Assembly (NCBI GenBank): GCA_002731295.1
Contig: PCBE01000031.1
Coordinates: forward strand, 2,391 to 8,153
Origin: Acidiferrobacteraceae bacterium
Lineage (GTDB): Bacteria > Pseudomonadota > Gammaproteobacteria > Arenicellales > UBA868
DNA: 5,763 nucleotides
Direction of reading: 5' to 3'
In this document: positions 1-5,763 of the stretch, piece by piece
How positions within the stretch are numbered: the stretch's first letter is position 1
Layout: every line of letters begins with the position of its first letter
Notes under the pieces: model-generated
What the model was told of the DNA's origin: nothing
What the model saw: the letters and a program-made list of their open reading frames with translations, nothing else
Databases searched by the model: none
Translations under genes and position numbers: made by a program

Positions 1-446
1 TGTTCTTCGACACTCATTGATGCACCCGGTGCACAGACGAGGCATGTCAGGTCATCACTGGCCGTAAATTCAACCTCTTCACCGGGAGCGCTATCTGAAC
101 TAAATAGTGGTATTGCTAGCGCATTGTCCAGCGTGATATCTAATGCTGATAGTCGCTGAGCCAGGGATCCTGTGTTCATGTCTCGATTGGCGAGGATAGA
201 ACCAAGGCCTGTTGGTTTCTGTACAGGATAGTTGCCCAGAGCGCCTGGGGCTGGGCGCCCGTTTCTATCGAAGACAATAACTTCACCGACCTGTCGCCCC
301 TGAGGATCGTGGATGGTAATGGTATCTCCTGCCTGTAATCGGACAACAATTGAACCTCCTCCCTGTACTTGGTAGCGTTCTAAACTAGGGTCGCTGCGCC
401 AGAGTCCGGGTTCAAGCAGCGATGGAGTGATGCTTAAGGCAGCCAT
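1..446 (-). CDS. DUF1989-like N-terminal domain protein, probable aminomethyltransferase (GcvT) fusion, partial at 3' end
   Basis: An open frame runs from ATG at 446-444 off the left edge, giving 148 complete codons with no stop. The start is constrained by an in-frame TGA at 456-458, and no strong Shine-Dalgarno is visible. Residues about 28-60 carry a beta-rich segment VVRLQAGDTITIHDPQGRQV followed by GEVIVFDRNGR. The visible end has a CLVCAPGASMSVEE motif. From family memory these match the DUF1989/urea-carboxylase-associated domain, especially the version placed before a GcvT-like folate-dependent aminomethyltransferase domain in proteins of roughly 700-800 residues. The GcvT part would lie outside the window and cannot be confirmed. 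DUF1989 itself has no proven activity that I can cite. The gene is on the same strand as amt and the small ORF but is separated from them by a terminator, so it probably has its own promoter between about 447 and 515. No clear -35/-10 pair stands out there. Confidence 0.6.
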   Translation of the reverse strand, partial: MAALSITPSLLEPGLWRSDPSLERYQVQGGGSIVVRLQAGDTITIHDPQGRQVGEVIVFDRNGRPAPGALGNYPVQKPTGLGSILANRDMNTGSLAQRLSALDITLDNALAIPLFSSDSAPGEEVEFTASDDLTCLVCAPGASMSVEE

Positions 447-515: not shown

Positions 516-547
516 AAAAGCGGCTCGACAGGTGCCGAGCCGCTTTT
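516..547 (-). terminator. Rho-independent terminator, probably bidirectional, ending the amt/small-ORF transcript
   Basis: A perfect 12-bp inverted repeat (AAAAGCGGCTCG at 516-527 and CGAGCCGCTTTT at 536-547) surrounds an 8-nt loop. Read on the minus strand the GC-rich stem is followed by TTTTTTCTTT (519 down to 510), a good U-tract. It lies 31 bp after the stop of the 55-codon ORF. Read on the plus strand it ends in a shorter TTTT, so weak bidirectional action is possible, but no plus-strand gene leads into it. It insulates the DUF1989-like gene from the amt unit. Confidence 0.92.
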
Positions 548-578: not shown

Positions 579-746
579 CTATCCGTGCTTTTTCTCCGTC
601 TCGTTCTCGTGTCGAATAGCCGAGATGATCGGGATGATGCACAACACGCATGCGATCAGGAACCAGATCCACACGCCACCACTCCCCGCGCTGTTGAAGA
701 CGTGCTCAGCACCCTCCCACTGGGTGATTGGGCTTGAGTTAAACAT
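579..746 (-). CDS. Small single-pass membrane protein (55 aa) co-transcribed with the ammonium transporter
   Basis: ATG at 746-744 to TAG at 581-579 encodes 55 residues. A strong AAGGAG ribosome binding site (754-759) sits 7 nt upstream of the start. The gene begins 36 bp after the amt stop on the same strand and ends 31 bp before a strong terminator, so it is the last gene of an amt transcript. Residues 1-24 are polar to neutral and begin MFNSSPITQWEGAEHVF. Residues 25-44 (GVWIWFLIACVL then CIIPIISA) form one hydrophobic helix, and residues 45-55 (IRHENETEKKHG, counted from I44) are charged. The acidic N-terminus and the Arg/Lys/Lys after the helix predict N-out, C-in topology. I do not recognise a named family. 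The position suggests a partner, stabiliser or regulator of Amt; this is an inference. The good RBS, sensible topology and terminator make it a convincing real gene. Confidence 0.85.
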   Translation of the reverse strand: MFNSSPITQWEGAEHVFNSAGSGGVWIWFLIACVLCIIPIISAIRHENETEKKHG

Positions 747-753
747 ATTGTTT

Positions 754-759
754 CTCCTT
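754..759 (-). promoter_or_regulatory. Shine-Dalgarno site of the 55-aa membrane protein
   Basis: AAGGAG on the minus strand, 7 nt before the ATG at 746. It falls in the 36-bp gap after the amt stop and supports independent translation of the small ORF. Confidence 0.85.
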
Positions 760-782: not shown

Positions 783-2114
783 TTAGCTATAGTTGCGGGA
801 TTGCATGCCTTCCGGATAAGCTGCAGCGGGCACTTCCGCATCGACGCCAATTTCTTGGACCGCATCAGAGGTTCGTAGAATCCCACACTGTTTCAGGATC
901 CACGAGACGACGTAACCTGGGATAAATCCACCTAATCCCATGGCTATGGCACCGACTAACTGACCCGTAAAGCTGATTGCTACGCCATCACCCACAGCGG
1001 GATAGCCACCGAGCAGAACACCCACGGCCATGACACCAATGAATCCGCAGGTACCGTGCACGGACACCGCACCGACTGCATCATCAATACCCCAACTGGT
1101 AATGAGCTTGTGGCTGTATGGAATTACGACGCCCCCTAAGAAGCCCAATGCAAATGCAGTCCCGGGATACCACAGGTCGAGACCTGCTGCCGCGCAGAAA
1201 ATACCTGCCAGTGCGCCTGACATCATCCAGAACGGGTCTTTGGTGATGAAATATGCGCCGATGACGCCACCGCTGAAACCCATCAGCGTGTTGAAAGCAA
1301 ACGTCGACAGGTTAGTAGGACCACCGTAGATATTTTTCCAGCCGCCAACTATGTCGATTTCCGCTAAGGGTGACGGATAAAGAAGGCAGGCGCCGAGAAA
1401 GCCGAAGAAGCCGATGATTATAATCATCAGACCGGCGATGGTCATTGGCTGACTGTGTCCCGCAAGATCATTAGCCGAACCGTCAGCATTGAATTTTCCG
1501 ACTCGCGGCCCAAGATTGATCAGGATTCCAAGGGCAAAGAATCCAGAGATCATGTGGACGCAACCCGCCGCCCCTACATCATGGAAACCCCACCGTACGA
1601 CCAGCCAGCCACCTTGTGACCAGCCCCATCCGGCAGCGATGATCCAGACGACCGAACCGACGAGTACTGAAAGTATGATCCAGGAGCTAATCCGGATTCG
1701 TTCAATGACTGAACCGGATACGATGGACGCTGTCGTTGCTGAGAACAGGGCGAATGCTGACCAGAATACGCCCCAACCAGGAAATCCAAGATTCGGGCCC
1801 ATAAAGTTACTCCACGGCACAGCGTATTGGGCGTAAGAACCGGATTCAGCGCTGAAAACGGGTAGGAAAATATTGTTCATCGCGTAAGCCCAGTAGAGCC
1901 ACCACCCGAACAAGAAGAACGTCGGAATAATAAACACAAACGCTAGGATATTTTTCACGCCGGACGCCAGCACGTTTTTCACGCGTGACTGGCCCATTTC
2001 ATACATCATAAAACCGGCGTGGATAGCTACCATGATGCCGGTTGCCCACCAGTAATATGCTTCTGCACTGGCGTTGGCCATGGCGTTGGTTAATGCAACG
2101 ACTTCATCGCTCAT
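783..2114 (-). CDS. amt: Ammonium transporter, Amt/MEP/Rh family
   Basis: A 443-residue inner-membrane channel for ammonium (possibly methylammonium), with about 11 hydrophobic segments. Aligned by eye to E. coli AmtB, the pore twin histidines are present: Asp179-x7-His187 (HDVGAAGCVH) for Asp160/His168, and His353 (SVHGTCGFIG) for His318. Phe124, Phe239 and Trp165 match the Phe gate (Phe107, Phe215) and the periplasmic Trp148. The vestibule Ser219 position is Cys243, and the usual FGFNAGSA motif reads FGFLGACL. The cytoplasmic tail keeps the Gly423-x-Asp425 core, but the HGE of the PII (GlnK) contact region reads roughly PAA before AlaTyr433, so PII control may be altered. The N-terminus shows no typical cleavable signal peptide. 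Start: ATG at 2114 with GGAGGA 6 nt upstream. Its neighbours are a 55-aa membrane protein directly downstream and a divergent glutamine synthetase-like gene. This fits nitrogen uptake; the exact amine carried is not shown by the sequence. Confidence 0.95.
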   Translation of the reverse strand: MSDEVVALTNAMANASAEAYYWWATGIMVAIHAGFMMYEMGQSRVKNVLASGVKNILAFVFIIPTFFLFGWWLYWAYAMNNIFLPVFSAESGSYAQYAVPWSNFMGPNLGFPGWGVFWSAFALFSATTASIVSGSVIERIRISSWIILSVLVGSVVWIIAAGWGWSQGGWLVVRWGFHDVGAAGCVHMISGFFALGILINLGPRVGKFNADGSANDLAGHSQPMTIAGLMIIIIGFFGFLGACLLYPSPLAEIDIVGGWKNIYGGPTNLSTFAFNTLMGFSGGVIGAYFITKDPFWMMSGALAGIFCAAAGLDLWYPGTAFALGFLGGVVIPYSHKLITSWGIDDAVGAVSVHGTCGFIGVMAVGVLLGGYPAVGDGVAISFTGQLVGAIAMGLGGFIPGYVVSWILKQCGILRTSDAVQEIGVDAEVPAAAYPEGMQSRNYS

Positions 2115-2506: not shown

Positions 2507-3859
2507 GTGACCAACGATTCCTTGCGCCAGTTAAAGAATTCCCTTGAAGAGCAGGGCGTTCGCTATTGCCTTCCCAGCTACGTCGATATTCATGGCGTAT
2601 CGAAATCCAAGTTTGTACCGATCTCCCACTTCGATCGGATGATGGCCGGTTCAGAATTGTGCACAGGCGCGGCGCTCGATGGTGTTCCGCAGGATGTCAG
2701 TGATGAGGAGGTCTCATCGCATCCGGACCCTGAAAGCGTAATTATTTTGCCCTGGAAAAAAGATGTGGCCTGGTTCGCGAGCGATTTGTGGTGTGAAGGC
2801 AAGCCGTTCGAGCCATGCAGTCGGAACATCTTTAAAGCGATACTGGCGCAGGCGGCGGATATGGGCTACACCTTTAATTTTGGCATTGAGCCTGAATTTT
2901 TTCTGCTCAAACATACGGACGATGGCGGATTCGGCCCCATTGGTCCACGCGATGATCTCGCGAAACCCGCCTACGATATTCGATCTACGCTTGACAGTTT
3001 CGAGCTTTTGGAGGAAATCGTCGACACATTAAACAGTGTTGGATATGACGTTTATTCTTACGATCACGAAGATGGAAACGGACAGTTTGAAATCGACTTT
3101 ATGTATCGCGATGGTCTCACTATGGCAGACCGTTTCGTGTTTTTTCGGCACCTGATACAAGAGCTGGCACATCGCAAGGGCTACTTCGCATCATTTATGC
3201 CTAAACCATTCTCAGATCGTGCCGGCAGCGGTGCTCATTACAATATGTCTCTTGCAGACATACAGTCAGGGGAAAATCTTTTTAAGTCTGACGATGATCC
3301 GCGAGGTTGCGGTATTACGGAACTTGGCTATTGGTTTATTGGTGGGATACTGAAGCATTTGCCGGCATTGTCGGCAGTCATATCACCCACCGTGAACAGT
3401 TATAAACGGCTGATCAAAACAGGCAGCATGTCGGGGTTTACCTGGGCGCCAGTCTTTGCCTGCTTTGGGAACAACAACCGAACGAATTCAATTCGGGTCC
3501 CACTGGGCGGGGAGCGGGTAGAACTACGCGCTGCAGATATTGCCAACAACCCTTATCTGGGCGGCGCTATGGTGCTTGCTGCGGGGTTACAAGGCGTGCG
3601 CGAAAGGATTGATCCCGGTCCACCGCATACCGAGAATATGTACCTCAAGTCGGATGCGGAACTGGCCGAACTGGGGGTCGGATATCTGCCGCGCAGCCTC
3701 GGAGAGGCCATTGATGCTTTTGAGGCCGACGATCTGGGTCGAGAGGTGATGGGAGATCTCATGTTTAAAACCTTTGCTGAATTCAAGCGGGCCGAGTGGG
3801 ACAGCTATTTGACCCATGTCAGTGACTGGGAAGTCGACCGTTACCTTAAGCTGTGGTAA
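2507..3859 (+). CDS. glnT: Type III glutamine synthetase-like gamma-glutamyl amine ligase (GlnT/GmaS type)
   Basis: A 450-residue cytoplasmic ATP-dependent ligase joining glutamate to ammonia or an amine. Visible motifs, numbered from the GTG at 2507: GIEPEFFL (126-133), YDHEDGNGQFEIDF (185-198, with Glu188 and Glu195), MPKPFSDRAGSGAHYNMSL (231-249), NSYKRL (297-302), NNNRTNSIRVP (322-332), VELRAADIANNPYL (338-351) and a C-terminal WEVDRYLKLW. This order and length match type III glutamine synthetases of the methylamine (N-methylglutamate) type. By eye alignment to E. coli GlnA, the ammonium-site Asp50 is Thr53 and the flap Glu327 is Trp313, while His271 is Asn246; this favours a non-ammonia amine such as methylamine. 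The frame is open back to GTG 2372 (45 extra codons), but that extension lacks a Shine-Dalgarno and does not resemble the family. It heads an operon with the alpha/beta hydrolase 40 bp downstream and diverges from amt. Family is secure; the amine substrate is inferred. Confidence 0.9.
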   Translation: MTNDSLRQLKNSLEEQGVRYCLPSYVDIHGVSKSKFVPISHFDRMMAGSELCTGAALDGVPQDVSDEEVSSHPDPESVIILPWKKDVAWFASDLWCEGKPFEPCSRNIFKAILAQAADMGYTFNFGIEPEFFLLKHTDDGGFGPIGPRDDLAKPAYDIRSTLDSFELLEEIVDTLNSVGYDVYSYDHEDGNGQFEIDFMYRDGLTMADRFVFFRHLIQELAHRKGYFASFMPKPFSDRAGSGAHYNMSLADIQSGENLFKSDDDPRGCGITELGYWFIGGILKHLPALSAVISPTVNSYKRLIKTGSMSGFTWAPVFACFGNNNRTNSIRVPLGGERVELRAADIANNPYLGGAMVLAAGLQGVRERIDPGPPHTENMYLKSDAELAELGVGYLPRSLGEAIDAFEADDLGREVMGDLMFKTFAEFKRAEWDSYLTHVSDWEVDRYLKLW

Positions 3860-3899: not shown

Positions 3900-4910
3900 A
3901 TGACGGAAGAGATCATCGAATACGAACTGGATGACGTTACTCTGGTGTCCGGAGAAACGCTCAAATCCGCAGTTCTGGTTGCGAAAACCTGGGGACAGTT
4001 GTCGGCTACGCGAGACAACGTGATTGTATTGCCGACCTATTACACGGGTACGCACGAGGGATATGCGCCGCTTGTCGGACCCGGCAACGTTTTCGATACG
4101 AATCACTATTTCGTGATCTCACCGAATCTTTTTGGAAATGGGTTGTCGACTTCACCCAGCAATGCGGTTGACTCGAACTCAGGCCCACGTTTTCCGCAGG
4201 TCGATGTTTATGACAATGTATTATGTCAGCATCGCCTATTGACTGAGAAGTTTGGTGTTACCGATATTCAATTGGTGGCTGGCTGGTCAATGGGTGCCAT
4301 CCAGGCTTTTCACTGGGCAGTGGCATTCCCAGATCTGGTGCGGCGGATCCTACCCTGGTGCGGATCTGCCCGCTGCTCCCCCCATAACCAAGTGTTTCTC
4401 GCTGGTGTTGAAGCGGCGCTGACTGTAGATCCCGTCTATGCTGAGGGCCATTATGATGTGCCTCCCGAGGCGGGCCTGAAGGCCTTCGGGCGGGTGTATT
4501 GTGGTTGGGCTTATTCGCAGGCCTTCTTTCGGGAGTCGCTCTGGCGGCAACTGGGGTTTGAGACGCTTGATGCCCTGCTTTCTTTTTGGGAGACAGACCA
4601 TCTTGAATGGGATGCCAATAATCTTTTAGCCAAGCTCAGAACCTGGCAGTCAGCCGATGTTGGAAAATTACAGTCTTTAGAAGGGGGTTACGAACAGGCG
4701 CTATCATCGATCAAAGCACAGGCAATCATTATGCCATCAAGAACTGATCTCTACTTCACCCCCGAGGACAGTGCTGTGGAAGTGCAGCACATGTCACATG
4801 CGGAATTGCGGGTGATCGAATCGGACTGGGGTCATTGTGCTGGAGGACCAGGCAGAGAGGATGCCGCCATGCGCCAACTCGGTGGTGCCGTAGACGATCT
4901 GCTCGGCTAA
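3900..4910 (+). CDS. Alpha/beta-fold hydrolase, homoserine O-acetyltransferase (MetX)-like
   Basis: A 336-residue predicted cytoplasmic enzyme with the MetX fold. Numbered from ATG 3900: an N-terminal beta region with SGETLKSAVLVAKTWGQL (residues 17-34), DNVIVLPTYYTGTHEGYAP (39-57), NLFGNGLSTSPSN (76-88, the counterpart of the GSTGPSS stretch of MetX), the nucleophile elbow GWSMG with Ser130, the acid in SRTDLYF (Asp283) and the general base in DWGHCAG (His312). The triad is complete, so the enzyme should be active, by acyl transfer or hydrolysis. True MetX usually has GGSMGG at the elbow and is somewhat longer, so methionine biosynthesis is not assumed. The frame extends upstream to ATG 3816 inside the ligase gene, but ATG 3900 is preferred because family similarity starts just after it and it avoids a 44-bp overlap; its Shine-Dalgarno is weak. 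The 40-bp gap to the ligase gene suggests one operon. The acyl substrate is unknown. Confidence 0.85.
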   Translation: MTEEIIEYELDDVTLVSGETLKSAVLVAKTWGQLSATRDNVIVLPTYYTGTHEGYAPLVGPGNVFDTNHYFVISPNLFGNGLSTSPSNAVDSNSGPRFPQVDVYDNVLCQHRLLTEKFGVTDIQLVAGWSMGAIQAFHWAVAFPDLVRRILPWCGSARCSPHNQVFLAGVEAALTVDPVYAEGHYDVPPEAGLKAFGRVYCGWAYSQAFFRESLWRQLGFETLDALLSFWETDHLEWDANNLLAKLRTWQSADVGKLQSLEGGYEQALSSIKAQAIIMPSRTDLYFTPEDSAVEVQHMSHAELRVIESDWGHCAGGPGREDAAMRQLGGAVDDLLG

Positions 4911-4932: not shown

Positions 4933-5763
4933 CTAGTCCATAGTTGAAGTTGTTATTGACTTGATCCCCGGTGTGCGGTGCCCATCCTCCCGCCACAAGA
5001 TGGGAAAGTAGTTTTCGTCTAGTTCACAGTCATCGAGATGTTTGTAACGGCTGTAGACGGGACCATTCCCGTGGTTGAGATGTTCCGGTGCGAACTGAGC
5101 ATCGGACCGCATACCATGTAAGACAAGGGCTCGGCGCCAGTTGTGTGACCGGTTCACACCAGATCCATGCCAGGTCCAGCCGTGGTGGAATGAGCCACCA
5201 CCCCGCGGGACCTCGACATAGATCACCTCCGGGGTCAGGTCTTCCTGTTGGGCAGCAGTTCTCATAACCTGTCTGTAATCGGGTGGATCGTGAAATGCAC
5301 CCTCGGGTGTTTGTTGGCCGTGCCATCGATGTGATCCACGCACAAATTCAAGGGTGCCATTATCTTGTGAGGTATCGTCCAGCGCGATCCAGCAGGTGAG
5401 CATCTCACGCGGTGTGTACCAGGCGAGGTATGCGTTATCCTGGTGGTACCCAAGCGCGCGTGCTGCGGGAGGTTTGCTGAGTACATTGTCCTGTACGATC
5501 CGTGTGCCAGGCCAGTCACCCAGTTGGGCCAGTGCTTGTCCGAGATCTTCACGAAGCACTGTTGCAGCAACGCAGCGGTCGGATTTCCAGGCATTGCAAA
5601 TCTGACGGGTCAGTTCCGGATCACTGTCACCTTCCTGCCAGTTCACCTCGTCGGGTCTGACCCCGGTTTCGAATTCCCCTCGAAACATCCGATCGAATCG
5701 TGTGTGCAGTTGCGTGATTGTTTTCTCGTCCAGTAAGTTGTCAACGATTAGATAACCATCATC
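4933..5763 (-). CDS. Phytanoyl-CoA dioxygenase (PhyH) family Fe(II)/2-oxoglutarate oxygenase, 5' end outside window
   Basis: The frame is open from the right edge (5763) to TAG at 4935-4933, giving 276 visible residues. The ATG at 5688 is internal: the 25 codons before it, starting DDGYLIVDNLLDEKTI, match the usual PhyH N-terminal opening, so the true start lies past the window, probably only a few residues away. Numbered from the edge, the iron ligands are His107-Gln-Asp109 (GYHQDNAY) and His199 in TWHGSGVNRS; Arg210 or Arg211 in NWRRALVLH is the likely 2-oxoglutarate salt-bridge residue. The middle has CWIALDDTSQDNGTLEFVRG, typical of the family. These oxygenases hydroxylate small molecules or CoA esters, with succinate and CO2 as co-products; the substrate here is unknown. 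It converges on the hydrolase gene with 22 bp between the stop codons. It may act in the same pathway, but it is not in the same operon. Confidence 0.9.
   Translation of the reverse strand, partial: DDGYLIVDNLLDEKTITQLHTRFDRMFRGEFETGVRPDEVNWQEGDSDPELTRQICNAWKSDRCVAATVLREDLGQALAQLGDWPGTRIVQDNVLSKPPAARALGYHQDNAYLAWYTPREMLTCWIALDDTSQDNGTLEFVRGSHRWHGQQTPEGAFHDPPDYRQVMRTAAQQEDLTPEVIYVEVPRGGGSFHHGWTWHGSGVNRSHNWRRALVLHGMRSDAQFAPEHLNHGNGPVYSRYKHLDDCELDENYFPILWREDGHRTPGIKSITTSTMD

Follow-up and report, generated by a model that had tools for sequence, protein, structure and literature searches.

A small membrane protein gene accompanies one lineage of proteobacterial Amt channels and likely encodes a channel subunit

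The locus and its small reading frame

We analysed a stretch of 5,763 nt (the window) from Acidiferrobacteraceae bacterium (assembly GCA_002731295.1, contig PCBE01000031.1, positions 2,391 to 8,153 of the forward strand). In it, an amt gene is followed on the same strand by a short reading frame, which an earlier note on this DNA had described as an overlooked gene for a membrane protein. The features used below are as follows (coordinates within the window).

3..446, minus: 5' part of tdm (trimethylamine N-oxide demethylase), cut by the window edge; the whole gene on the contig scores 1199.6 bits against NF053776 (cut-off 1100)
516..547, minus: terminator-like hairpin ending the amt-small unit (14-bp stem, T-run), 31 nt past the small ORF
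579..746, minus: small-protein ORF (55 aa, stop codon included in the coordinates), ATG start, predicted single-pass membrane protein
582..614, minus: residues 45-55 of the small protein, charged, predicted cytoplasmic end; Glu47 and Glu51 are conserved
615..674, minus: residues 25-44 of the small protein, predicted transmembrane helix
675..737, minus: residues 4-24 of the small protein (SPI..WEGA....A..GG), highest conservation, presumably outside the membrane
754..759, minus: Shine-Dalgarno site AAGGAG, 7 nt from the ATG; comparable sites in relatives
783..2114, minus: amt of the partnered lineage (443 aa), its stop 36 nt before the small ORF
1386..1388, minus: Amt Cys243, at Ser208 of A. 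fulgidus Amt-1 (outer ammonium site)
1395..1397, minus: Amt Leu240, at Asn205 of A. fulgidus Amt-1
2507..3859, plus: type III glutamine synthetase family gene, GMAS-like (TIGR03105, 549.2 bits; 9qur, 409.7 bits)

The 55-aa ORF is real by all the positional details that the earlier note had given (its place, the AAGGAG site and the distances to amt and to the terminator), each of which we confirmed. Its translation is MFNSSPITQWEGAEHVFNSAGSGGVWIWFLIACVLCIIPIISAIRHENETEKKHG. The single transmembrane helix claimed for it agrees with prediction, the Kyte-Doolittle maximum being 2.66 at residue 26 (19-residue window). The statement that a standard gene caller would miss the ORF held in part: it was overlooked here, but its counterparts are annotated as 'hypothetical protein' on all five plasmid records inspected (see below).

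A homologue of the small protein (E 0.001 or better) is found in 27 of 100 relative genomes, and a profile built from 31 members, run against 5.8 billion proteins, retrieved 388 homologues (E 0.01 or better). Among the best 120 of these 388, none has a Pfam domain, and they are named 'hypothetical protein' or by a bare coordinate string. No Pfam or NCBIfam family matched the window protein above its curated cut-off, and seven of its relatives gave sub-threshold matches only. Homology to CcmD (heme exporter protein D) was considered and rejected (the best PDB match of the profile has E 0.058 and covers only 26 residues around the transmembrane helix).

A chance reading frame, or the mere end of a transcript, might be suspected since the ORF is short and the rule by which we recognise partner ORFs (see below) is also passed behind 26 of 1021 other reading frames of at least 250 aa, real or not, in the same stretches. 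Against this, pN/pS among ten members is 0.04-0.59 and below 1 in 45/45 pairs (many of them saturated at synonymous sites), the motif is retained in homologues down to about 30-50% identity, and 86/86 Amt genes of the lineage carry the ORF. At the level of sequence this reading is already refuted, and we give it virtually no probability. Both checks proposed in the earlier note favour a gene: the ORF is present behind orthologous amt genes, and the bias at synonymous sites indicates purifying selection. The small ORF is a conserved, previously unnamed gene and protein family.

The family comes in two sequence types. Window-type members follow the pattern SPI..WEGA....A..GG-TM-E...E..H, and sister-type members (1360 homologues) the pattern T....W.....IG.IYPFVG.E-TM-W..WH..Q...E. 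The two types align end to end by hhalign (probability 44.7%, E 2.3e-4), and one profile match links them (E 5.6e-5, in a small set); we call their common origin probable only. Mean entropy of the window type is 0.86 before the helix, 1.54 in the helix and 1.60 in the tail, and that of the sister type is 0.87, 1.42 and 2.36, respectively, so that in each type conservation is highest ahead of the helix (each computed from the best 120 matches, of 388 and of 1360, sets that are biased towards the profile).

At six loci of one subclade, the frame opens (ATG behind AAGGAG) with a stretch that resembles a Sec signal peptide as judged by reading the sequence, e.g. MNAIRQKTTAVLSALALVLGMTTTAQA, followed by the conserved motif; an 83-aa form of this kind is found in 8 of the best 120 of the 388 homologues. 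With such a start, the conserved segment would be expected on the outer side of the membrane, in agreement with the N-out/C-in single-pass topology predicted in the earlier note. An AlphaFold2 model of the small protein alone has a mean pLDDT of 72.6 (59 for residues 11-20 and 74 for residues 21-30). For a read-through Amt-small fusion the mean is 85.7 (77 for residues 15-24 of the small part), in a construct whose linker at the Amt C-terminus cannot properly place an N-out protein; several Mep2 rows in the VIA table of this fusion model reach the small helix (up to residues 508-510), matches to the C-terminal part of Mep2 that we consider loose and gave no weight.

Pairing with one Amt lineage

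We searched with the Amt protein alone as the probe, so that the presence of the small gene had no influence on selection. The 100 relatives (E 1e-60) contain 53 Amt places, of which 29 share at least 59% identity with the window Amt and the other 24 share 42-48%; 397 genomes of the phylum (E 1e-60) gave 17 places and 370 genomes of the class (E 1e-50) gave 21, both counts including the window's own genome. A partner ORF was defined as one on the same strand with a Shine-Dalgarno site, a start between -12 and +111 nt relative to the Amt stop, a length of 45-110 aa and a Kyte-Doolittle window above 1.2 (a rule that was fixed only after the ORFs had been seen).

The searches yielded 89 distinct Amt genes of the lineage, three of which end at a contig edge. 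All of the remaining 86 are followed, after 2-98 nt, by a small single-TM ORF of 54-106 aa: 50/50 in the 100 relatives (own genome included), another 16/16 in the phylum genomes and 20/20 in the class genomes. Among canonical Amts (listed high scorers and those of the own genome), none of 27 rows, i.e., 23 distinct genes, has such an ORF by the same rule. The pairing with amt is thus strict, and the partner is present across the whole Amt lineage, a larger range than the earlier note supposed. When the small protein is used as the probe, an Amt gene lies directly upstream in 29/30, 14/15 and 18/19 loci of three sets (the 14/15 set overlaps the 29/30 set, with several identical loci). The exceptions are one contig end that cannot show an Amt (L025 and L039) and a marginal match (L078, E 8.8e-4) within a 653-aa frame.

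An Amt tree was built from 82 sequences (50 window-type, 23 sister-type and nine without a partner), after removal of a duplicate row and of a locus where no Amt match could be read; the sister-type L113, whose downstream end is cut, was labelled by clade. The partner state needs two changes on this tree, and the partnered Amts form one side of a branch with support 100/99; support for the window-type group alone is weak (37/62). All 86 cases may trace to one ancestral pairing, so they count retention and not independent events; the striking point is that no loss of the small gene is seen among them. Two genomes, G043 (L023, L029) and G095 (L017, L030), contain two distinct Amt-small pairs each, and the second small protein in these genomes (MGSPITTW...) is much diverged from the first.

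The own genome has three Amt genes and two P-II genes, the latter on contigs C85 and C7 and not on the window's contig (C38). The C85 Amt gene is immediately preceded by a P-II gene, and by the partner-ORF rule no small TM ORF follows either this gene or the C26 Amt. Not counting the window's own contig, P-II genes are found in 0/37 window-type and 0/23 sister-type stretches, as compared to 17/20 canonical stretches. The partnered Amts therefore do not belong to the GlnK-linked AmtB type (P-II gene beside amt), in agreement with the contrast that the earlier note drew between this locus and the usual pairing of Amt with glnK. The same note had also called the tail of this Amt altered. The window Amt ends ...AAAYPEGMQSRNYS and the glnK-linked Amt of the same genome ...LEAYPEFTGNR, and this detail is weaker than was claimed.

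Outer-site residues and amine-catabolism setting

By profile score, fold and pore residues, the window Amt is a member of the Amt/Mep family (PF00909). The marine ammonium transporter subtype TIGR03644 was rejected as a classification, as the window Amt scores 165.8 bits and four relatives 142.8-181.4 against a cut-off of 514. We aligned 86 Amts (77 partnered and nine unpartnered) with A. fulgidus Amt-1 (2b2f) as the reference for residues. Phe96, Trp137, Asp149, His157, Phe204 and His305 are conserved in 86/86. The Ser208 position, which corresponds to the Ser where AmtB recruits ammonium, is Cys in 77/77 partnered Amts (L113 being assigned by clade) and Ser in 9/9 unpartnered ones. The Asn205 position is Leu, Ile or Phe in 51/51 window-type, Tyr in 26/26 sister-type and Asn in 9/9 unpartnered Amts. 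Phe, Trp and Ser residues are named at the ammonium-recruitment site in the accessible part of PMC9277239. In the 77 partnered Amts, the switched Cys and Leu/Ile/Phe/Tyr positions adjoin the second Phe of the outer gate.

The window lies in a methylamine-degradation cluster of its own contig (C38; L046, 485-17079), which includes Tdm, the amt-small pair, the GMAS-like gene, Tmm (812.6 bits, cut-off 675), glutamate-synthase-like genes and a second type III glutamine synthetase gene. For the GMAS-like gene beside amt, the closest solved structure is a glutamate--methylamine ligase (409.7 bits), followed by the type III enzyme 7cql (318.1) and plain glutamine synthetase (272.5). The glutamate-synthase-like genes are like parts of N-methylglutamate synthase, by resemblance only. 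Between the GMAS-like and Tmm genes lie a MetX-like alpha/beta hydrolase (PRK07581 family, 427 bits; 3900-4910, plus) and a PhyH-type dioxygenase (4933-5763, minus).

We counted a stretch (4.5 to 20 kb) as carrying methylamine genes if it had a match (30% or higher identity across 40% of the query) to at least one of Tdm, Tmm, GmaS, GlnT, MgsC, DmmA and DmmC. Such genes are found in 29/37 window-type stretches (four of the 37, L206-L209, were first found via the small protein), 14/23 sister-type and 0/20 canonical stretches; some glutamate-synthase and synthetase matches are only 30-52% identical and may be paralogues. Seventeen of the 60 partnered stretches have no methylamine gene by this rule. 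In one of them, L200 (6520-10350, genome G595), the ethanolamine ammonia-lyase genes eutB and eutC come immediately before the amt-small pair, so this Amt lineage also occurs outside methylamine clusters. On Thioclava plasmid p3, none of the genes annotated in the 15 kb displayed around the pair is a methylamine gene. In view of these cases, "amine-catabolism-associated" is the safer wording. GMAS as a constant neighbour was rejected, as a close GMAS (at least 84% identity) is found only in the window's own family.

Partnered-type Amts are also present on 10 plasmid records; in all five that were inspected, amt is followed by a gene of the small-protein family. The order on plasmid p2 of Thioclava sp. 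GXIMD4215 is flavin oxidoreductase, DUF1989 protein, regulator, amt, small gene, aminomethyltransferase and dmmA. On plasmid p-SCP4 of Ponticoccus alexandrii, dmm genes precede the amt-small pair, and three glutamate-synthase-like genes and glnT come after it. On Pseudomonas aeruginosa RW109 plasmid 1 (L168, 435190-446344), the pair lies beside betaine-aldehyde dehydrogenase, aminomethyltransferase and SugE-like genes; its location on a large plasmid hints at horizontal transfer of the amt-small unit. A tblastn search of plasmids with an alphaproteobacterial small protein gave no match although family members adjoin the plasmid Amts, so this search is too weak for short divergent proteins.

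Proposed role and relation to known systems

The small gene is found as the next gene after amt, is under purifying selection and is absent behind the canonical Amts examined. On these grounds we regard the small protein as a likely obligate subunit of the amine-cluster Amt channel lineage, and among the roles offered in the earlier note, Amt subunit or stabiliser appears to be the best reading. In size the family resembles transporter-bound single-TM subunits of the AcrZ-like type (one helix in a protein of no more than about 100 aa): all 86 have a hydrophobic stretch and the lengths given above. Counting against a subunit, no Amt-small fusion protein was seen by length among the matches listed (including the best 120 of 388 and the best 120 of 1360). 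Each Amt protomer would have one small-protein helix packed against it, with the conserved outer segment (SPI..WEGA) placed at the periplasmic mouth, near the site where Cys replaces Ser and Leu or Tyr replaces Asn. In this place it may stabilise the working form of the channel and influence how the substrate enters, the predicted substrate being methylammonium (mono-, di- or trimethylated) rather than ammonium released by amine breakdown. A further-reaching proposal, which we put forward tentatively and consider possible though doubtful, is that the pair would be a dedicated methylated-amine uptake channel of marine bacteria and the first two-component Amt, in which an outer-cap subunit together with the Ser-to-Cys and Asn-to-Leu/Tyr changes would convert an ammonium channel to one for mono-, di- and trimethylammonium, freed from P-II control.

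An assembly or stability factor, which would aid folding or trimerisation of Amt or shield it from membrane proteases without being a lasting part of the channel, accounts equally for the strict pairing, and small proteins of such a kind, MgtS and MgtU, are known for other transporters (PMC10710835, as far as its accessible part goes). It fits less well with the fact that the most conserved part is the N-terminal segment, presumably outside the membrane, and that the outer-site residues of Amt change in step with the partner. The conserved outer segment and the outer-site switch favour the channel mouth over general protection, and we regard an assembly or stability factor as an unlikely reading that still keeps some weight. 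That the small protein belongs to methylamine metabolism instead, working in the membrane with Tdm, GMAS or another enzyme and lying behind amt by happenstance, is suggested by the many loci with methylamine genes; yet the pair persists in the 17 stretches that lack those genes, and no Amt-free small homologue was confirmed among the loci fetched, which makes this reading very improbable.

Nearly as improbable is the idea, raised in the earlier note, that the small protein is a P-II substitute and acts as the nitrogen-status regulator of Amt. The distribution of P-II genes (absent in 60/60 partnered stretches, present in 17/20 canonical ones) would suit it. P-II, however, is a regulator on the cytoplasmic side that depends on a body able to bind effectors, whereas the window protein has about 11 predicted cytoplasmic residues, less conserved than its N-terminal part. 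Its conservation peaks in that presumed outer segment, and the own genome keeps two P-II genes, one of them beside another Amt; the suggestion finds no support here.

The subunit reading can be compared with several known systems. The sensor Amts Sd-Amt1 and Ks-Amt5 (8qpf, 8qj3, 6eu6; chains of 644 and 661 residues) carry C-terminal signalling domains, whereas here a separate small membrane protein is encoded. GlnK-AmtB shares with our pair a co-encoded small partner of the Amt trimer. GlnK is soluble and cytoplasmic (PMC10710835, accessible part), in contrast to the predicted membrane protein with its presumed outer segment described here, whose gene lies downstream of a different Amt lineage without a P-II gene in any of the 60 stretches. 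The nearest idea is sP36, a 61-aa protein of Methanosarcina mazei that is reported to bind AmtB1 and GlnK1 (PMC10714827). According to that paper, sP36 lacks a transmembrane helix, stays spread through the cytoplasm until an ammonium upshift and brings about the binding of GlnK1. It is likewise a small protein tied to an Amt, but by this description of a different kind, as a transmembrane helix is predicted here and the small gene adjoins Amts with no P-II gene nearby. AcrZ, MgtS, MgtU and WatS1 are small modulators (28-55 aa) tied to transporters. In the accessible part of PMC10710835 none of them is described as acting on Amt, which is discussed with P-II only, and, unlike in that account, the small protein here is always found beside its presumed target.

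In marine bacteria, amt or amtB recurs in clusters for TMA, DMA and MMA (PMC7574528, PMC5520151), the same genomic setting as here; the accessible parts of these papers call the transporter an ammonium or ammonia transporter and do not mention a downstream small gene. TmoXWV and TmoP are known importers of TMAO, and no importer of TMA, DMA or MMA is named in the accessible parts of the marine methylamine literature (including PMC7574528 and PMC5520151). Our literature search, with thin coverage of subscription papers and without bioRxiv, found nothing on a small membrane protein beside a bacterial amt.

Amt channels are treated as single-polypeptide trimers under P-II control. The proteobacterial lineage described here keeps a second, family-less membrane protein beside the channel, with no exception in 86 readable cases, and many of the partnered clusters degrade methylated amines, a marine nitrogen pool. 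If the small protein is a subunit, the lineage would offer a direct test of how the selectivity and gating of an Amt can be altered from outside the membrane.
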